Shown in pieces: positions 4,781-32,935 of a stretch of DNA of 33,765 nt (within the stretch, counting starts at the first letter, position 1; every line of letters starts with the position of its first letter). Position numbers and translations under genes: made by a program. The notes beneath the pieces were generated by a model that made no database searches, was not told the origin of the DNA, and worked only from the letters and a program-made list of their open reading frames with translations. The stretch is from a virus, in IMG/VR virus record IMGVR_UViG_3300043449_000761, positions 1-33,765 of that record. One strand, 5' to 3'.

Positions 4781-5206
4781 TCAGTAAATAATGACCGGCG
4801 CTGTCGTGCTGGTGTTTGCCGGAAAAGTGACCGTGAATGGGGCCGCACTCGTTGAGTAGGAACCGCCAAAATTTAGCACCGCCACGGAGCGGTTGCCCTT
4901 AGACGCATTGTATATCAATGCTCCTGCCGTCGTCAGCGTGGAATTAGCCCACGTAATTGGTTCCCAGCTTGTATACGCCGTAGTACCAGAGAGCGCCACG
5001 CCCAACCCCGTCAGGGTTTCTCCGCCCGCGGTGTAGCCTGTGCCTACCACTTCACCGGAAGTCGTGTAGACCGTCGTAGATGCGCTGATATTGGACGCAC
5101 TTGTATAAAGCGCGATTTTGAACGTATCGCCACCGACGAGCGAGAAGTTGTGGATGCCTTCGAGAAGCTCTTGTTTGAAACTGGCGGTCAGCGCTTGGGT
5201 GATCAT
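4781..5206 (-). CDS. Virion structural protein
   Basis: 141 residues. Its opening, MITQALTASFKQELLEGIHNF, with the following DTFKIALYTSASNISASTT, is a conserved signature of a phage structural family found next to tail genes in many environmental phages. It also has TGYTAGGETLTG and a C-terminus rich in Thr and Ser. The start overlaps the stop of the upstream adaptor gene by four bases (ATGA). The role is probably in the tail or tail-fibre base. Confidence 0.7.
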   Translation of the reverse strand: MITQALTASFKQELLEGIHNFSLVGGDTFKIALYTSASNISASTTVYTTSGEVVGTGYTAGGETLTGLGVALSGTTAYTSWEPITWANSTLTTAGALIYNASKGNRSVAVLNFGGSYSTSAAPFTVTFPANTSTTAPVIIY

Positions 5207-5868
5207 ACGACTTTGTCCCTAACCTGCATGGTGCGGTACATATCAGCGCGATCTTTCCCATCAGAAAGTTGTTTGAGAAGTTGTATCGCTTGGTCGTATT
5301 TAGCCTGATAAGACTGAATTAAATCGGCCTCACCCTTTAAAAAAACATAAGCTTCAACCAAAGCGCCGTACAACAGCACGTTCGGGTAGTTCGTACTCAG
5401 CCAAGTCGTTCCAGCAGTCACAATCGACTCAGGATAGGCAAAGTAATGCAGCTCGATGTTGTAGTTCACATCGGGCGTCGGACCCAAGATGAAGGTGTTG
5501 TTGTCGAACAGACCATAGTACTGCGGCGTGCCCGTCACGCCGGGAAACGGAAAGAACTCGCGAATGTAGTTCACATCCTTATTCAGCATGTACCGATAGC
5601 CATCGGCCTGTGTCGCCCCAGAGTTCATCACAGCAACGGAGAACGTCGCCAGAAAATCTGAGGGGAGCGTCAGATATGGAAAACTGGCTGTAGCCGAGCC
5701 CGTGACATTCTTGCGGAATGCCGGAAGCTGGACCGTGTTATTGACCAGTCTCTCCGTATCCTGAATGAACGTCGGGATATTTCCGACAAACGTGTCTTCG
5801 TTCGACTCAGTAAAAGCCTGAATCGCGTTGGTAAGACCTGTGTAAGTCGTAATATCGTAGGAAGTCAT
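5203..5868 (-). CDS. Head-tail adaptor-like protein (SU10-adaptor type)
   Basis: 221 residues. The N-terminal half has a helical start (YTGLTNAIQAFTESNEDTFV) and FIQDTERLVNNTVQLPAFRKN. The middle has beta segments, including PYLTLPSDFLATFSV. The C-terminus is helical (YGALVEAYVFLKGEADLIQSY). This layout matches adaptor proteins that sit between portal and tail in P22-like and SU10-like phages. A second adaptor-like gene lies two kilobases upstream, which suggests a two-layer connector. The assignment is by pattern; no structure was compared. Confidence 0.65.
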   Translation of the reverse strand: MTSYDITTYTGLTNAIQAFTESNEDTFVGNIPTFIQDTERLVNNTVQLPAFRKNVTGSATASFPYLTLPSDFLATFSVAVMNSGATQADGYRYMLNKDVNYIREFFPFPGVTGTPQYYGLFDNNTFILGPTPDVNYNIELHYFAYPESIVTAGTTWLSTNYPNVLLYGALVEAYVFLKGEADLIQSYQAKYDQAIQLLKQLSDGKDRADMYRTMQVRDKVV

Positions 5869-21358: not shown

Positions 21359-21483
21359 GCGCCTGAAATTTGGCAGTATGCGTAGGGCTTGCGCCCTATG
21401 AGACCAGTTCTTAATTGACCGCGTTTATGCGAGGCGCCAGCAAATGTATGGAGCGGGTGGGATGGTTCCGAATCGGGTGGAAT

Positions 21484-21498
21484 GTAACACCGTGTTAC
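21484..21498. promoter_or_regulatory. Palindrome GTAACACCGTGTTAC, copy 1
   Basis: Seven-base arms around one central base. It lies in the long non-coding region, 126 bases before the second copy. The same arms occur, with C or G as the centre, at four more places in intergenic DNA. A dimeric DNA-binding protein is the likely reader. Confidence 0.7.
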
Positions 21499-21613
21499 GT
21501 TGCGGGGCGCAACGTGGGAACGGGTTTCTGCAGGTAGCGCAGATGGTCGCGTCTAGGGAAAGATAACCTGCCTCGGGGCAGGTTGGGAGCAGGGTTTGGA
21601 GGGTCAGGATAGC

Positions 21614-21634
21614 AACGTAACACCGTGTTACGTT
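21614..21634. promoter_or_regulatory. Palindrome, copy 2, longest perfect arms
   Basis: The core GTAACACCGTGTTAC at 21617-21631 is extended here to ten-base arms (AACGTAACAC and GTGTTACGTT) around a central C. It is the most complete copy seen, in the same non-coding region as copy 1. Confidence 0.75.
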
Positions 21635-21932
21635 AGGCCCCTACAGGGCGCAGAGTGTGCTGTCGTAAGCTCAATAGTCATATATGCAGGGGAGGGGCTT
21701 CGGTCGCAGAGTCAGCAGTGGTGCGGGATGTGAGTCGATTATTATTATTATTGATAGTTCTTATAAATATATATAACCCCCTGAAATTTCATTTTTTTCG
21801 CTCTCCTCCCTCCAGAAAAAAAAGAGTATAAATAGCTTTATAGTTTTCATAAAGACCGCTAACTAATCCTACTTCACACGCTACGCACCGCGTCACGCCT
21901 CACTCTGCGACATTCACTTGACTCCTGCACAT

Positions 21933-22061
21933 ATGACTATTAGCATTACGACCGTACGCTCTGTTCTGGGTAAGGGGTCCATTCCGCGACCTTTTATATA
22001 TGTCGTACATCCAGTAACCACGGGCCTCAGGGCCTTTTACGACCAAACGGAAATTATATGA
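21933..22061 (+). CDS. Possible 42-aa leader protein
   Basis: An ATG at 21933 opens a 42-residue frame (MTISITTVRSVLGKGSIPRP, ending AFYDQTEII) whose stop overlaps the start of the 343-aa gene by four bases (ATGA). The overlap suggests translational coupling, but there is no clear Shine-Dalgarno site before it. Possible leader peptide. No family recognised. Confidence 0.35.
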   Translation: MTISITTVRSVLGKGSIPRPFIYVVHPVTTGLRAFYDQTEII

Positions 22062-23089
22062 ATCTCGAAGATATCGAAGACGCGCAAGACCTTCTTGCCT
22101 ATGATGACCTCGTTCTGACCATCGAAAGCACACGCGACCTCCGCAGTGGGGAAGTGCCTGACTCGATTAAGTTACAGAAAGCCTATATAAAAGGATCATT
22201 CCCTATGAGGCACGAACCCGACAGAGGCTACCTCTTTGTCTCCTCTGCTTGGGTGAAGGAACAAAATATAGAGGAGATGATAACTAAATTGAAAAAGACC
22301 ACGCGCTACGTCACGACCAAGCCAAAGAACATTTTCAAAGGAACAGGCCTCACTTCTACACCTGAGAACCCTGCAGTACGCTCCTGCCTTATATTTGATC
22401 TGCATAGAGCCAACGCAATAACCCATGTTCCTGCCCGAAAGAAACCCAGAGGATGGAGAGCGAAAGAACTGCACAATGAGGCCATAGAATTCGCCTTGAA
22501 AAAGATGCGTGAGACAGGCCACCTCCAACTGACGTACAACAAACGAGCAACGCCCGAACTCCAAGAGTATTTCGATTATGCCAACGACTGTATGCAGGAA
22601 GCCTATGAACTCTACGCCGACTGCTACCAAATGATGCTGAACAACAGGCTACCCCGCAAACCAAGACACCTGCCTAACACAGTGCCCGGCAACAGATCCA
22701 AATTCGCGGACCAATATAAAGCGGAATCCATCCGGTGTCAGGGCGTTGATGCGTTACTGTCCAAAGAGCTGAGACTGTTCTACGAGACCGATGTGGATAA
22801 GTACGTCATGCGTGATGGTGCTCCACACAAAGTGGTGGACTACTACAGACCCACAGAGCCTCCTGTGGCGTGGCTTGGTAAAGCCGTAATCCGTGATAAA
22901 TACACGCAGGTCTATATAAAGCTGGCTTGTCTGACGCATGAGTATGCTGACGCGCTCAAGGAGTCGACGGGTGTGGAGATCACCGACCTGAGGTACATGC
23001 AGGACGAGCGGTATAAGGGCAAGGTGAACACTACAATCGGTGGACACAAGTGCCGGTGTGCCAAGTTTGAATTCAGCAGGAGTAATTGA
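22058..23089 (+). CDS. Unknown 343-aa protein
   Basis: 343 residues starting MNLEDIEDAQDLLAYDDLVL, with GGA seven bases upstream. It is mixed helix and strand, rather basic, and has no membrane span. Segments that stand out: FDLHRANAITHVPARKKPRG, ELHNEAIEFALKKMRETGHL, a Cys-containing helical part (YANDCMQEAYELYADCYQMM) and a C-terminal KCRCAKF. It follows the candidate origin region and comes before a 75-aa gene. Its place suggests replication or regulation, but I see no known catalytic motif. Confidence 0.75.
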   Translation: MNLEDIEDAQDLLAYDDLVLTIESTRDLRSGEVPDSIKLQKAYIKGSFPMRHEPDRGYLFVSSAWVKEQNIEEMITKLKKTTRYVTTKPKNIFKGTGLTSTPENPAVRSCLIFDLHRANAITHVPARKKPRGWRAKELHNEAIEFALKKMRETGHLQLTYNKRATPELQEYFDYANDCMQEAYELYADCYQMMLNNRLPRKPRHLPNTVPGNRSKFADQYKAESIRCQGVDALLSKELRLFYETDVDKYVMRDGAPHKVVDYYRPTEPPVAWLGKAVIRDKYTQVYIKLACLTHEYADALKESTGVEITDLRYMQDERYKGKVNTTIGGHKCRCAKFEFSRSN

Positions 23090-23389: not shown

Positions 23390-23417
23390 TTGACATGGAT
23401 CGCCCCTCTAGTATAAT
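23390..23417 (+). promoter_or_regulatory. Consensus sigma70 promoter P1
   Basis: Perfect TTGACA (23390-23395), 16-base spacer, perfect TATAAT (23412-23417). It drives the ~100-base leader and the gene cluster starting at 23522. It is the strongest promoter-like sequence in the window. Palindrome copy 4 lies downstream at 23467. Confidence 0.9.
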
Positions 23418-23466
23418 AGACAGCGTGGGGGCAGTCCGGCCTGTGTGATTCCGGCCCCTGCATAAC

Positions 23467-24295: not shown

Positions 24296-24583
24296 ATGAA
24301 CTACGAAATCAAACAAGTTAAGTCGCAGAGTGCGTACGAGTGGAACTATGAGAATGGTGCTGTGGTGTTGGTGTCCTACACCACGCCTGTCGCTGTCTAT
24401 GTTCCGGGTGATGGGTTCATCGAGACCAATCAGAAGTTCTCTCGAACCACGAGTAAGCATATTAACCAGTGGAAAAACAGGCACGGCGTGACTCAGGCTC
24501 GGACTGTGCCTCAAGAAGAAATTAAAGGTTGGGTTGTGTTGCTCTCCACTCAGGAGATGCAACGTACTACGGTAGTACGTTAG
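24296..24583 (+). CDS. Unknown 95-aa protein with a palindrome in its last codons
   Basis: 95 residues starting MNYEIKQVKSQSAYEWNYEN with GAGGTG upstream. The sequence is strand-rich (GAVVLVSYTTPVAVYVPGDG) and ends with a basic part and QRTTVVR. The last seven codons and the stop spell out a 21-base palindrome (24561-24581), which is why the C-terminal residues have little freedom. No family recognised. Confidence 0.65.
   Translation: MNYEIKQVKSQSAYEWNYENGAVVLVSYTTPVAVYVPGDGFIETNQKFSRTTSKHINQWKNRHGVTQARTVPQEEIKGWVVLLSTQEMQRTTVVR
24561..24581. promoter_or_regulatory. Variant palindrome at the end of the 24296 gene
   Basis: Arms AACGTACTAC and GTAGTACGTT around a central G: ten-base perfect arms. 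It shares the outer six bases (AACGTA) and inner two (AC) per arm with palindrome copy 2, differing only at the seventh and eighth positions. It may be a second operator class, bound by the same or a related protein, placed inside a gene. Confidence 0.6.
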
Positions 24584-26089: not shown

Positions 26090-26791
26090 ATGAACAGAGA
26101 AAGAGCTCGATACAAGATTTACCCGGCTGAGACATTGGCTAGGTTGTTACACCCAAGCTATCAGATGCACATTCCCAAGGCGCATAAGGGTTGTAGGCTG
26201 ACAGCTATGTCGGCGTACTCACACCCGGCACTGGTCGATACCTTGAGCAAGGTTAATCGAGAGAAGTTGTACCGCATGATGCGCGATGACTTCCCAGTGG
26301 GCAAGGTTATCGAGGGAACGGGTTTCAAGGTTCCTTATCGCCATCGTAGTCGATCAACTGATGCTTTGTTTGTGTGCGTCATTGCGGGTGAGTTCAAGCG
26401 TCTAGAGCAGAAGGTATCTTCTGACCGCGAGACTGTCCTCGTTCGTAGGTTCAACCCTGAGAAGTTCAGCCAGTGGATACAGAATAAGTGGAACCCATCT
26501 ACGCAAGAATGGGAACCCGCGCCTTTGGAGGAGCAGGTGCTTCACTACATGAAGAATGCGACCGACGAGGTAAAGCCTGTCTACAAAGATCGGCTGACCA
26601 AAGCTGAGATAACCAAGCTGTCGCTGTTGCATTTGGTTGAGCCCGGAACTTATGTCGAGGGTCTTGGTGGGGTGCAGATGAATGCGCGATACGAGACCTA
26701 CAGCGATCAGGAAGGTAGGTTGCGAGGCCAAAAAGTCCCGAACGAGCGGGTGTATTTCATTCAGGGAGGTAAAAGTGAAGGCGTATCATAG
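26090..26791 (+). CDS. Unknown 233-aa protein
   Basis: 233 residues starting MNRERARYKIYPAETLARLL with AAGGAG upstream. Basic throughout, with HKGCRLTAMSAYSHPALVDT, KVIEGTGFKVPYRHRSRSTD, VLVRRFNPEKFSQWIQNKWN and a C-terminal LRGQKVPNERVYFIQGGKSE. No known domain was recognised. It is the last large gene of the P1 string and overlaps the next gene by 17 bases. A nucleic-acid-related role is possible from charge only. Confidence 0.7.
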   Translation: MNRERARYKIYPAETLARLLHPSYQMHIPKAHKGCRLTAMSAYSHPALVDTLSKVNREKLYRMMRDDFPVGKVIEGTGFKVPYRHRSRSTDALFVCVIAGEFKRLEQKVSSDRETVLVRRFNPEKFSQWIQNKWNPSTQEWEPAPLEEQVLHYMKNATDEVKPVYKDRLTKAEITKLSLLHLVEPGTYVEGLGGVQMNARYETYSDQEGRLRGQKVPNERVYFIQGGKSEGVS

Positions 26792-26963
26792 GGAGATCCA
26801 CAAGCTCGCATCCGCGCATGGGTGCGAGGTGGAGAGAGGTGCGAAGCACTTCAAACTCACAAGAGTAGGTAAGGTGGTAGCTACTGCCTCGGTGTCCCCG
26901 AGTTGCTATCACGCGGTCAAGAATCTCAAGAGGGATCTGGGCCGTATACAAGGGTTGACATAA
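26775..26963 (+). CDS. HicA-like small protein, 62 aa
   Basis: 62 residues from a GTG at 26775, which has GGGAGG six bases before it (a longer frame starts inside the preceding gene). The sequence (KAYHREIHKLASAHGCEVER, GAKHFKLTRVGKVVATASV, YHAVKNLKRDLGRI) has the order of HicA toxins: an N-terminal helix, Gly-Cys/Trp, a basic-His-Phe block, a strand, and a final LKRDLG helix. HicA proteins are small RNA-binding RNases. No HicB-like antitoxin is seen. Call by pattern only; the -35 box of P2 lies inside its last codons. Confidence 0.45.
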   Translation: MKAYHREIHKLASAHGCEVERGAKHFKLTRVGKVVATASVSPSCYHAVKNLKRDLGRIQGLT

Positions 26964-26982
26964 ACCCCTAGTGTAGTAGAAT
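26955..26982 (+). promoter_or_regulatory. Sigma70-type promoter P2
   Basis: TTGACA (26955-26960), 16-base spacer, TAGAAT (26977-26982). Its -35 box overlaps the stop region of the preceding gene. It precedes the ATPase/VWA cassette. Spacing and following leader mirror P1 at 23390. Confidence 0.85.
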
Positions 26983-27036
26983 ATTGTCTGGGGGTTATCC
27001 CCGTCCCGGCAGGTTGTCCTGCTTGTAACTAATAAC

Positions 27037-27051
27037 GTAACACGGTGTTAC
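27037..27051. promoter_or_regulatory. Palindrome GTAACACGGTGTTAC, copy 5, in the P2 leader
   Basis: 54 bases downstream of the -10 box of P2 and 15 bases before the first gene start. It shares the extended context AACGTAACAC and GTGTTACGAAC with copy 4. The layout (promoter, structured leader, palindrome, RBS) matches P1. Confidence 0.8.
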
Positions 27052-27066
27052 GAACTGGAGATTAGC

Positions 27067-27954
27067 ATGAACGCTATCGTTTCTTTCCCGGCTACTAAAG
27101 TAGCTACGCTGTCATCGTCTGCCATTCTGGTTGAGCTCAACATCGGTTGCCCGACCTTCACCAAGCGAGATAAAAAAACGCAGGAGGAGGTGCTACTCGC
27201 TAAGGGTGCTCGCTCAAAAGCGGCTGACGTTAATAAGATCCTCTTGCCTGAGTGCAAGGAGTTGGATGCGGTGAGCAAGTTCGCGGCATTGGTTCGCACA
27301 TGGCATAACGGCAGGACTCTGCCTTGGAGCAACAAGGGCCCTCGCCTCTTGCCGGGTCCGATCATGTTCGATTACAAGACTCAGGTCAGTCAGTATCGGC
27401 AGGACTTCTTTACGCTTCGAGATCAATTCCTGCTTGCGTATCCACAAGCTATTCAGACTGCCGCGTTTGGTACGGGTGGGTTTTTCGACCGCAATGACTA
27501 CGCATCTGTCGATGAGGTCAGCGAGAAGTTCTCGTTCAATATCCACTTCTCTCCTCTGCCTGAGGCGGGTGACTTCCGTCTGGATATCGGGACGCAGGGC
27601 CTTGAGGAACTTCGTAAGGAGTACGAAGCGAATGCCAACCGCATGCTAGGCGGTGTGATGCAGGAGATGTGGGATCGGATGCACGACTCTCTTACTACGC
27701 TATCCAATCAATTCCGTATTGAGCAGGATGGTACGAAGGGTAAGCTGTATCAGGCGACCATCGACGCGGCGTTGGAGATGTGTGATCTGTTGGAGAAATT
27801 CAATCCGACTAACGACGAGGACTTGGACAAGGCTCGTCGGGATCTCAAGATGACCCTGCAGGGTATCGACCTTGCCGAGGTTAAGAAGTACCCCGAGGTG
27901 CGTAAAGGCGTTAAGACCGAACTCGACGCAATCCTCAGCAAGCTGAACTTTTAA
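27067..27954 (+). CDS. DUF3150-like protein
   Basis: 295 residues. It starts MNAIVSFPATKVATLSSSAI, then LVELNIGCPTFTKRDKKTQE, and contains NKILLPECKELDAVSKFAAL, RTWHNGRTLPWSNKGPRLLP and a long helical C-terminal half (GVMQEMWDRMHDSLTTLSNQ, then LYQATIDAALEMCDLLEKFN). Length and layout match DUF3150, a family I recall in phages beside MoxR and VWA genes, of unknown function. GGAG stands before the ATG. It is the first gene of the P2 unit, 21 bases before the AAA+ gene. Probable partner or substrate adaptor of the ATPase. Confidence 0.65.
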   Translation: MNAIVSFPATKVATLSSSAILVELNIGCPTFTKRDKKTQEEVLLAKGARSKAADVNKILLPECKELDAVSKFAALVRTWHNGRTLPWSNKGPRLLPGPIMFDYKTQVSQYRQDFFTLRDQFLLAYPQAIQTAAFGTGGFFDRNDYASVDEVSEKFSFNIHFSPLPEAGDFRLDIGTQGLEELRKEYEANANRMLGGVMQEMWDRMHDSLTTLSNQFRIEQDGTKGKLYQATIDAALEMCDLLEKFNPTNDEDLDKARRDLKMTLQGIDLAEVKKYPEVRKGVKTELDAILSKLNF

Positions 27955-27975
27955 TTACAACTAGGAGATTACACC

Positions 27976-29082
27976 ATGGCTACTATCACCAAACCTTATT
28001 CTTCTCTTTCAATGGCTCAGATCAGCGACTTGATCCTAGCCTCTGGCGATGCAGTTACCTTCATGGTTGAGGGTGAGATGGGCTCAGGCAAGTCATCCAT
28101 TCTTTGGGATCTTGCCAAGCGTCTGCCCGAGCATATCGCTTGCTATGTCGAGTGTGCCTGTATGGACGTAGGCGATGTGGCTGTGCCCAAGATCAAGACT
28201 CTCGATAACGTAGTAATCGGTGAGCTTGTGACCGAGGGCGAGGTGACTCGCTTCGTACCTAATGAGTCTTTCGGTCTGCATCTTGGCAAGAAGCTAATCA
28301 TCATGTGGGACGAGCTTGGTAAGTCTACCAACTCAGTTATCAACGCTGTCTCTCGCATCATCAACGAGGGTGTGTTGGGTATGTATAAGTTGCCCGAGGG
28401 TAGCTATCAGTTTGCTACGACCAACCTCGCTGTCGAGGGTGTAGGTGACAAGCTACAGGCTCACATCCGCAACCGTATGTGTATGGTCAAGATGCGTAAG
28501 CCGACTCACATGGAGTGGGTTGAGAACTACGCGCTCCCGGCAGGGCTTGATCCGGTTATCGTGGCGTTTGCTATGGAGTACCCGCAGGTGTTCGAGTCTT
28601 TCGAGTCTGTCGAAGATCCGAACAGCAACCCGTATATCTTCCATCCCAAGCAACCACGCCGTAGCTTTGTGTCTCCTCGCTCACTGGCCAAGGCATCCCA
28701 TCTGCTGTCCACGACTCAGCACATGGCCTATGACGTACGGGTTCATGCTCTCATGGGTATGGTTGGCGAAGCGGCGGCTATGGACATTATGGTGATCGAC
28801 AAGCTCAACGATGACATCCCGGCTTACGAGCGTGTGGTGGCTGACCCTGACGGTGCGTCTGTGCCCAAGTCTGGTGTGTCTAGCTGTCTCATGGTGGCTA
28901 AGATCTCCATGCGTGTGTCCAAGGAGGACTTCGATGCTTGCTTCACTTATGTCAAGCGTCTGCCCAAGGAGGTACAGGCATTGTTTGCTCGTACTGTCAT
29001 GCGTACCGACAAGCGTCAGTTCGCTGTAACCAACAAGCTGTTCGTAGATTGGGCGGCTACCAATATGTATCTGTTTAGCTAG
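27976..29082 (+). CDS. MoxR-type AAA+ ATPase
   Basis: 368 residues. Walker A is GEMGSGKS (33-40), Walker B is LIIMWDE (107-113), sensor 1 is Asn150 (FATTN), an Arg-finger candidate lies in HIRNRM (163-168), and a sensor 2-like Arg is in VSPRSLAKA (~232-240). This set and the insert order are those of MoxR/RavA-type AAA+ proteins, which use ATP to remodel partner proteins, often together with a VWA protein that binds via a MIDAS site. The VWA gene is two genes downstream. AGGAG precedes the ATG. ATPase function is likely; the target is unknown. Confidence 0.85.
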   Translation: MATITKPYSSLSMAQISDLILASGDAVTFMVEGEMGSGKSSILWDLAKRLPEHIACYVECACMDVGDVAVPKIKTLDNVVIGELVTEGEVTRFVPNESFGLHLGKKLIIMWDELGKSTNSVINAVSRIINEGVLGMYKLPEGSYQFATTNLAVEGVGDKLQAHIRNRMCMVKMRKPTHMEWVENYALPAGLDPVIVAFAMEYPQVFESFESVEDPNSNPYIFHPKQPRRSFVSPRSLAKASHLLSTTQHMAYDVRVHALMGMVGEAAAMDIMVIDKLNDDIPAYERVVADPDGASVPKSGVSSCLMVAKISMRVSKEDFDACFTYVKRLPKEVQALFARTVMRTDKRQFAVTNKLFVDWAATNMYLFS

Positions 29083-29095
29083 TGCATGGTGCTTT

Positions 29096-29119
29096 GGGCA
29101 CATGGATGTGCCTCTTTTT
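29096..29119 (+). terminator. Terminator or attenuator after the AAA+ gene
   Basis: GGGCACA, loop TGGA, TGTGCCT (seven pairs with one wobble) followed by CTTTTT. It stands 14 bases after the AAA+ stop and overlaps the approach to the next RBS (AAGGAG). It could reduce transcription of the 107-aa and VWA genes relative to the ATPase. Confidence 0.7.
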
Positions 29120-29131
29120 AAGGAGATTGAT

Positions 29132-29455
29132 ATGGATAAGAAACAAGTCTATGGCCGACTGAATCTCAGTTGGAGTGGCAATACCGTATTGCCTTTGGAG
29201 CAAGCGCATAAGGTGCAAGCTATCCTCGCACAGTACGCTGTGGGGTTCGGTGAGGCATACCGCCCCGATGTTCCGAATGTTCAATACCTCGTAGATTACA
29301 GCCCACCCGATGTGTCCATCACGGTTCTGCCAGTGGTAGATGCTCGAGGGCTGACACATAACCAACGCCAAGCGTGGGAGCAATCCGTACGCGACTCAGA
29401 GGGTGACACCTATCTGTCACCGCAAGAGTTTGTCGCTTTATCAGGAGAGAAGTAA
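29132..29455 (+). CDS. Unknown 107-aa protein of the ATPase/VWA cassette
   Basis: 107 residues from MDKKQVYGRLNLSWSGNTVL at 29132, where AAGGAG stands eight bases upstream. It has VLPLEQAHKVQAILAQYAVG, VQYLVDYSPPDVSITVLPVV and a C-terminus with DTYLSPQEFVALSGEK. The stop overlaps the VWA start by one base (TAATG). It sits between AAA+ and VWA, so it may be a small adaptor. Not recognised as a known family. Confidence 0.7.
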   Translation: MDKKQVYGRLNLSWSGNTVLPLEQAHKVQAILAQYAVGFGEAYRPDVPNVQYLVDYSPPDVSITVLPVVDARGLTHNQRQAWEQSVRDSEGDTYLSPQEFVALSGEK

Positions 29456-30621
29456 TGGAGAAGTTAAACGCTACTCAGCGAATTGAGAAAGCCCATGTGT
29501 CTATCATGGGTCACGATGCAACCCGAGCCTACTCGTCTATCCTCATGGTGGGTTCGGTGACTGTATGCCCCAAGACCAAGACCGCCTACACCAACGGGCG
29601 TGACTGTGTGTACGGCGAGCTGTTCGTAGGCAAGCAGACTGATGCCGAGCTTATCGGTTTGGTTCTACACGAGAATGGTCACAAGTATCTACAGCACGCT
29701 TTCCTCTGGAAGCATCTGTGGGCTATGAACTCCAAGCTCGCCAATATCGCCGCAGATTATGTGGTCAACCTTGAGATTCAGGATATCAGCAAGAAGCATC
29801 CGAGCTTTGTGCAGTTGCCCAAGGGCGCACTTGTCGACGAGAAGTACCGTGGCATGGACACGCAGGAAGTGTTCAACCTTCTTATGAATGAGGGTGGTGA
29901 CGGCGGTGAGCGTGGCGAGGGTGATGGCGAGGAGGGTGAGGGTTTCGACGAGCATGACTTCAGCTCTCTGTCTCAGGAGGAGATCGAGGAGCTTGCCGAG
30001 GAGATGGACCAAGCTATCCGTCAAGGTGCGCTGTTGGCAGGTAAGCAGGGTGGTGATGTGCCTCGTTCGTTCAAGGATCTCATGGCTCCCAAGGTTGACT
30101 GGCGTGAGCAGTTGCGTGAGTTCATCACCGCTATCTCTGCAGGTAAGGATGACTCGACTTGGCGTAGACCCAACCGCCGTTGGTTACAGCACGATATGTA
30201 TTTGCCTAGCACCATCTCGCAGACCATGGGCAAGATGTGTGTGGTTGTCGACACGTCCGGCTCTATCAGCACGGAACTGGTCTCGCGCTTCCTGTCCGAG
30301 ATTGTCAGCATTTGCGACACCGTGACGCCTGAGCAGTTGCATCTGATTTGTTGCGATGCACAGGTCGCGAGCCATGATGTGTTCGACCCGACTACCTACC
30401 CTGAGCTTGCTCAGATCCGCGAGTTCCGTGGCGGTGGCGGTACGGATATGCCCGAGGCATTGCGTTACATCGACAAGAACAACATCGACCCTGTACTTAC
30501 TCTGGTGCTTACTGATGGATACACCCCTTGGCCCTCCACCCTATCCCACCCCTGCCTTTGGGCGATTACAGAGAAAAACGTGGTCTCCCCCATCGGAACC
30601 TCGATTCACATTGAAGCCTGA
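29455..30621 (+). CDS. VWA protein with HEXXH metallopeptidase-like domain (DUF2201-type)
   Basis: 388 residues. The N-terminal part has LVLHENGHKYLQH: the HEXXH motif is H72-E73-N74-G75-H76, followed by NIAADYVVNLEIQD with a probable third ligand region. An acidic linker (residues ~146-186) leads to a VWA domain from residue 260: MIDAS residues Asp266-Thr-Ser-Gly-Ser270, Thr330 in GGGGTD and Asp354 in LTDGYTPW are all present. It ends with a typical CLWAITEKNVVSPIGTSIHI. This is the architecture of the DUF2201 family (metallopeptidase-like plus VWA). With the MoxR ATPase nearby, it probably works as the ATPase's substrate-binding partner. Peptidase activity is unproven. Confidence 0.85.
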   Translation: MEKLNATQRIEKAHVSIMGHDATRAYSSILMVGSVTVCPKTKTAYTNGRDCVYGELFVGKQTDAELIGLVLHENGHKYLQHAFLWKHLWAMNSKLANIAADYVVNLEIQDISKKHPSFVQLPKGALVDEKYRGMDTQEVFNLLMNEGGDGGERGEGDGEEGEGFDEHDFSSLSQEEIEELAEEMDQAIRQGALLAGKQGGDVPRSFKDLMAPKVDWREQLREFITAISAGKDDSTWRRPNRRWLQHDMYLPSTISQTMGKMCVVVDTSGSISTELVSRFLSEIVSICDTVTPEQLHLICCDAQVASHDVFDPTTYPELAQIREFRGGGGTDMPEALRYIDKNNIDPVLTLVLTDGYTPWPSTLSHPCLWAITEKNVVSPIGTSIHIEA

Positions 30622-30640
30622 TTCGGCTGAGTATTGGGCG

Positions 30641-30889
30641 ATGGTGGCTAAGGATTCACCTCGTACGATGAGCAGTATCTATTGCCTGAGGGTGCAGAAC
30701 AATGCACCCCTAGGTTGGTACGTACACGATATCAGGAGTAGCCAAGCCTACGAGTGTAAGGAGCTACCTGACAATATCAGGGAGCGTATAGCGTTGCTGA
30801 TGATGTTCAACGAGGATGACGCCATCGTGTCCGATGTGGGCTATCGCTTTAACAACAGTGTGTTTTATCTGAATCCTGACACGCTCTAG
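30641..30889 (+). CDS. Unknown 82-aa protein after the VWA gene
   Basis: 82 residues if it starts at the ATG at 30641 (MVAKDSPRTMSSIYCLRVQN); a TTG at 30611 could extend it and an ATG at 30668 could shorten it, and none has a strong ribosome-binding site. The part NAPLGWYVHDIRSSQAYECK and DNIRERIALLMMFNEDDAIV, then VGYRFNNSVFYLNPDTL, looks like a compact fold. It follows the VWA gene by 19 bases and probably belongs to the same unit. Not recognised. Confidence 0.6.
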   Translation: MVAKDSPRTMSSIYCLRVQNNAPLGWYVHDIRSSQAYECKELPDNIRERIALLMMFNEDDAIVSDVGYRFNNSVFYLNPDTL

Positions 30890-32770: not shown

Positions 32771-32935
32771 ATGAGCGAAAAACAATTAGAAGCCCTGATG
32801 AGTTGGATCAAGGCAACAATAGACGTAAAGATTGAAGAGGCGTTTGGTCGAGATAGTTTGCATGAAGACATAATCGAGATTGAATGCAAGAAGGATCTTT
32901 ATGTTGCGCTTGGTCTACGCGAGGAGGAAGAATGA
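32771..32935 (+). CDS. Unknown 54-aa helical protein
   Basis: A complete 54-residue frame: MSEKQLEALMSWIKATIDVK, IEEAFGRDSLHEDIIEIECK, ending YVALGLREEEE. It has GGGGGAT before the ATG and overlaps the next gene by four bases. Helical and acidic. An 11-codon ATG frame before it (32739-32774) could be a coupled start or a relic. Confidence 0.55.
   Translation: MSEKQLEALMSWIKATIDVKIEEAFGRDSLHEDIIEIECKKDLYVALGLREEEE

Follow-up and report, generated by a model that had tools for sequence, protein, structure and literature searches.

What task might a phage give to a MoxR-type ATPase and a partner protein that joins a metallopeptidase-like domain to a VWA domain? The question is raised by the IMG/VR virus record IMGVR_UViG_3300043449_000761, whose 33,765 bases constitute the window analysed here. 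A cassette on its plus strand (26955-30889) encodes, in order, a mostly helical DUF3150-like protein of 295 amino acids (D, 27067-27954), a MoxR-type AAA+ ATPase of 368 amino acids (A, 27976-29082), a 107-amino-acid protein, a 388-amino-acid protein with a DUF2201_N metallopeptidase-like domain and a VWA domain (V, 29455-30621) and an 82-amino-acid protein, all preceded by a promoter close to consensus and a perfect palindrome. D, A and V represent a real conserved unit, a set of linked genes that is common to hundreds of environmental viruses and some conjugative plasmids.

The linkage was examined in IMG/VR loci with full flanks, defined as at least 5 kb upstream and at least 4 kb downstream of the seed gene; these locus sets include near-duplicates, and the counts do not represent independent events. 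All 29 loci seeded with D also carry A and V, encoded on the strand of D, in agreement with a preliminary description of this DNA that had read these genes as a cassette. Loci seeded with V contain A in 56 of 56 cases, the genomic pairing with a VWA protein expected of a MoxR ATPase, and D in 48 of 56. The gene orders D-A-V, A-V-D and A-D-V were found among the loci. In the 23 records searched in full, no ATPase gene was seen without its VWA partner, a finding that by the same description would have weakened the cassette idea: 18 carried both A and V, and five carried neither. A profile search did not find D in the phages N4, LUZ7, Presley, CRP-7 and two relatives. Tunturiibacter phage Tunturi_3 (L206) encodes a D-like protein at 4872-5831 and, near it, a 531-amino-acid AAA protein; the A and V profiles have no match in this phage.

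V is a relative of N4 gp25, matches PHROG 1314 at 1e-79 and is a DUF2201 protein, both domain models exceeding their curated cut-offs: PF13203 with 85.7 bits (cut-off 23.2; 5e-24) and PF09967 with 67.9 bits (cut-off 26.4; 1e-18). Residues H72, E73, H76, N97, D101 and N105 are invariant in 111 V proteins, as are D266, S268 and S270 of the metal ion-dependent adhesion site (MIDAS), so that the HExxH motif (HENGH, H72-E73-x-x-H76; codons at 29668-29682) and these residues of the MIDAS, both noted earlier, hold across homologues. In the predicted structure, with a mean predicted local distance difference test score (pLDDT) of 89, HExxH is part of helix 63-78, and helix 93-114 contains D101. The proposal that HExxH forms a metal site gains from its strict conservation and from the confidence of the model in that region; D101, in the helix that follows, is a candidate third metal ligand, and the invariant HExxH and Asp101 together mark V as a putative peptidase. 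Residues 255-388 of the model (30217-30618) show the VWA fold, with Z of about 12-13 to VWA domains by VIA-align, and the PDB fold matches listed were all to this VWA part. PHROG 1314, and many RefSeq phage records that copy it, name the V-type protein 'HNH endonuclease'. In V, Pfam detects no HNH domain but DUF2201_N, DUF2201 and a weak match to VWA_CoxE, and the label therefore appears to be wrong, probably a propagated mislabel.

A is related to N4 gp24 and matches PHROG 1297 at 2e-44; among proteins of solved structure, the profile search ranks midasin, a member of the MoxR clade as well, as its best relative. Walker A (GEMGSGKS, K39), Walker B (D112-E113), sensor-1 N150 and R167 are conserved among 33 A homologues. 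The intact Walker A, Walker B and sensor 1 described earlier are thus kept in these homologues, and A has the AAA+ set of these motifs and an arginine finger.

The third member is less sharply defined. D scores 13.2 bits against DUF3150 (PF11348), under the curated cut-off of 24.9, whereas all 29 D relatives scanned match the model (E up to 0.1, best 4e-6), for which reason D is termed DUF3150-like. Its other Pfam matches are chance-level helical models. The predicted structure is mainly helical, and the PDB fold matches were rejected as helical-bundle background. Homology of D to LUZ7 ORF36, the gene ahead of the ATPase in that phage, was likewise rejected: ORF36 is a different AAA protein. 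Among 396 genomes of the phylum of locus L201, DUF3150 has five matches, and one of them exceeds the cut-off; such small numbers do not allow their context to be counted. No mention of DUF3150 was found in the literature searched.

Comparison with close relatives shows that a phage of this kind can do without the module. G014, a 67.8 kb record that gave the best terminase match, runs collinear with the window, with identities of 93% for the major head protein, 83% for terL, 77% for the portal and 80% for the GroES-like protein, and is probably complete, because the 81 bases at its end occur again near its start. No homologues of D, A, V, the 107- or the 82-amino-acid protein were found in G014 by tblastn, and neither D nor V by profile, in a search that included no positive control but used profiles that matched targets elsewhere. 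G014 carries a DUF932 gene after the shared pyrimidine-dimer glycosylase gene. A 38 kb fragment, G015, agrees with G014; it also holds a homologue of a 343-amino-acid protein without a Pfam match that is encoded at 22058-23089 of the window. D, A and V are missing as well from the isolates 023Pt_psg01, DSL-LC04, HTVC023P and HTVC027P, whose terminases are 51-55% identical. The module is thus accessory in its distribution and, since near-identical sisters lack it, probably an optional tool directed at the host and not a component needed for building the particle.

The same trio is found on plasmids. In Burkholderia ambifaria and Cupriavidus necator, A, D and V, all matched by their profiles, form one plasmid-borne operon; the order is A-D-V as opposed to D-A-V in the window, and the plasmid V copies retain HExxH and MIDAS. 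On a Simplicispira plasmid (L304, 1262-8073), D and V are adjacent and A lies about 3.6 kb upstream, separated from them by other small genes; the A-D-V operons of L305 and L306 are, by contrast, compact. The module adjoins type IV secretion genes on one Burkholderiales plasmid. Plasmids produce no virions; obligate virion assembly is therefore disfavoured, as plasmids carry the trio and sister virions manage without it.

The left half of the window encodes tail, head and packaging proteins on the minus strand (terminase, portal, GroES-like co-chaperonin and major head protein), and the right half, which includes the cassette, mainly small genes on the plus strand. Megablast of the window against phages gave no near relative. 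All the open reading frames reported earlier for 26955-30889 were found there, but the five genes proved less of a self-contained cassette than had been proposed: D, A and V are the conserved unit, and the 107-amino-acid gene (29132-29455) is a clade-specific insert. Its homologues are confined to a subclade, always directly before V (L040, L041, L119, L120, L123, L126 and L152), so it is not a general member of the set. Its ATG at 29132 is preceded by AAGGAG, its stop overlaps the V start by one base at 29455, and an earlier ATG at 29102 sits inside a terminator-like hairpin with a T run (29096-29113, plus strand) of uncertain role. The 82-amino-acid protein (30641-30889, start codon uncertain) is one of a small family whose genes accompany the cassette in most relatives, often two of them in adjacent positions, and the claim of self-containment is further weakened by these additional members nearby and by the lack of D in N4-like phages and some relatives. 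Upstream of the cassette, a 233-amino-acid protein (26090-26791, plus strand) is apparently akin, by eye, to the downstream neighbour of V in L040.

The cassette does have a promoter of its own, as had been suggested: a sigma-70-like TTGACA-16-TAGAAT at 26955-26982 (plus strand) matches 11 of 12 consensus positions and ranks second in the region. In general, promoter-like matches are no commoner than in shuffled sequence. The operator-like palindrome is also present, as the perfect dyad CGTAACAC-G-GTGTTACG in the cassette leader (27036-27052), a probable operator, though it belongs to a larger array: CGTAACACGGTGTTACG occurs five times in the window against 0.12 copies expected by chance. The other copies lie at 21483, 21616, 23314 and 23466, and a variant near 24563. 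The same dyad, in its copy at 23466, also lies downstream of the best promoter of the region (23390-23417, 12 of 12), at a spacing similar to that in the cassette. A DNA dyad is favoured over an RNA hairpin, though not proven, because the RNA folds are no stronger than those of shuffles and that of the cassette dyad is not unusually stable. Relatives have dyads of different sequence and the same build. These number as many as 16 and typically stand a few tens of bases ahead of start codons, those of D, A and V included. Such lineage-specific palindromes (CGTAACACnGTGTTACG in the window; TTCGTACnGTACGAA, TACTGTCnGACAGTA and others elsewhere, for example in L020, L036, L097, L192 and L205) are possibly the dispersed operators of a putative regulator. 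At least three copies were found in 74 of 103 distinct D-bearing loci, and at most two in shuffles. A strict tie between palindrome and D was rejected, since weaker repeats also occur in a few loci without D, and many loci with D lack repeats altogether. No repeated palindrome was found in G014, G015, the first 49 kb of 023Pt_psg01 and DSL-LC04, or N4-like loci. The stoperators of mycobacteriophages, dispersed repressor sites of asymmetric sequence (PMC9283540), offer an analogy only. Two of the palindromes fall in a stretch of about 700 bases without a clear gene (21360-22057), together with a 53-base imperfect inverted repeat (21638-21690 / 21924-21976); it may be an origin or control region. 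Farther downstream, repeated gene starts and segments at 32932, 33327 and 33575 suggest tandem paralogous small genes.

We tentatively interpret D, A and V as an accessory machine of phages and plasmids, an AAA+ protein remodeller with three parts, which would most likely grip and unfold a target protein by means of ATP and perhaps cut it, and which is probably directed at the host early in infection. By family, A would form a MoxR-type ATPase ring. V would dock on this ring and hold a target peptide through its MIDAS, as the strict linkage and the MoxR-VWA precedent suggest, and its N-terminal domain would bind a metal and probably cut the target as it is pulled out, to judge from the invariant HExxH and Asp101. 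D, helical and absent from N4-like phages, may recruit or present a particular target. From their position and promoter, the genes would be expressed in early or mid-infection under a phage-specific regulator that binds the operator, and the module would act on a host protein or a host-encoded barrier and not on virion proteins.

The alternative closest to this interpretation differs from it in the cutting step only, and our confidence in the one overlaps with that in the other. In it, HExxH would be structural or metal-sensing and V would link A to its target without proteolysis, in the manner of RavA-ViaA or CbbQ-CbbO. The MoxR-VWA pairs studied so far act in complex assembly or remodelling (PMC7159879), and the literature found contains no report of a DUF2201 protein acting as a protease. 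However, the catalytic Glu ought to be dispensable in a site with a structural role only, and neither the full HExxH with its Glu73 nor the Asp/Asn helix varies across distant phages, with HExxH kept in the plasmid copies as well; we regard a remodeller that never cuts as the less likely form of the machine. At the other extreme, the trio would be a new type of mobile-element weapon, with which phages and conjugative plasmids dismantle a host defence or regulatory complex: a targeted metalloprotease, powered by ATP, whose MoxR ring passes proteins to a VWA-tethered zincin while D picks the target. So specific a role is unlikely on the present evidence. Slightly less likely still is a defence or exclusion module against competing elements, which resembles the predicted bacterial ternary conflict systems in layout, with a MoxR ATPase, a vWA partner and a third component (PMC7159879), and which would suit an accessory module common to phages and plasmids. 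D, however, matches none of the third components described for those systems in Pfam (VMAP, iSTAND, FtsH, beta-propeller), no effector domain was found among the cassette neighbours, PADLOC defence models gave only weak P-loop matches, which were rejected as a defence-family match, and core status in lytic N4-like phages would be odd for such a role.

Virion assembly is a further alternative. It was proposed for a jumbo-phage pair that has, by its description, the same combination of MoxR and metallopeptidase-vWA proteins (PMC7824862; the passage on the pair does not mention a D partner), and a viral MoxR ATPase with a VWA partner is known from ATV p618/p892 (PMC4124505), where p618 is a component of an archaeal-virus virion and the pair, according to PMC7824862, has no metallopeptidase domain. 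Moreover, A and V form a two-gene core in all N4-like phages compared in 2014, listed without a known function (PMC4193335). The families of N4 gp24 and gp25 (Schitoviridae, PHROG 1297 and 1314) lie close together in N4, LUZ7 and Presley, and in N4 the homologous ATPase gene likewise precedes that of the DUF2201 VWA protein in a non-structural part of the genome. The N4 proteins are, however, only about 20-30% identical to those of the window, N4, LUZ7 and Presley have no D, and the pair is core there as opposed to accessory among the relatives of the window. Neither 'N4-like' nor Schitoviridae was found in the CRISPRi-ART paper. The preliminary description had rightly treated the function as largely open, although the pair had already been noted as N4 core genes 24/25 and proposed for jumbo-phage assembly. 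Obligate virion maturation, one of the three functions it offered, is disfavoured by the collinear sister phage, which lacks the module despite a 93% identical major head protein, by the trio on plasmids, and by the placement of the module apart from the structural block, on the opposite strand and with its own promoter; we consider a need for the module in assembly improbable, and host-directed action is favoured on the sister-phage and plasmid evidence.

Some points weigh against a host-directed remodelling machine. Its direction towards the host would follow from absence in sisters and presence on plasmids, and early expression from position only. The A-V complex, its activity and its target are predictions from sequence, the metal-site geometry of V is deduced from conservation, the fold matches having covered the VWA part, and the D model is of modest confidence (pLDDT 72) and without a PDB match. 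In N4-like phages, core status of A and V fits an essential step (PMC4193335). A different use of A and V in other phage groups is possible, as N4-like phages keep them as core genes and assembly was proposed for jumbo phages.

The A/V pair, in N4 (genes 24/25) and jumbo phages, and the association of MoxR with vWA proteins (PMC7159879, PMC4124505) were known before; the D partner, the sharing between phages and plasmids, the absence from a sister phage and the palindrome arrays appear to be new. The linkage of a third gene, the recurrence on plasmids and the absence from sisters shift the search for a function from virion assembly towards the host. Natural phage pairs with and without the module, and plasmid copies in culturable Burkholderiales, provide material for tests. 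If A indeed drives V as a peptidase, the two would represent a phage-encoded AAA+ protease of an unfamiliar class, outside those of which we know.

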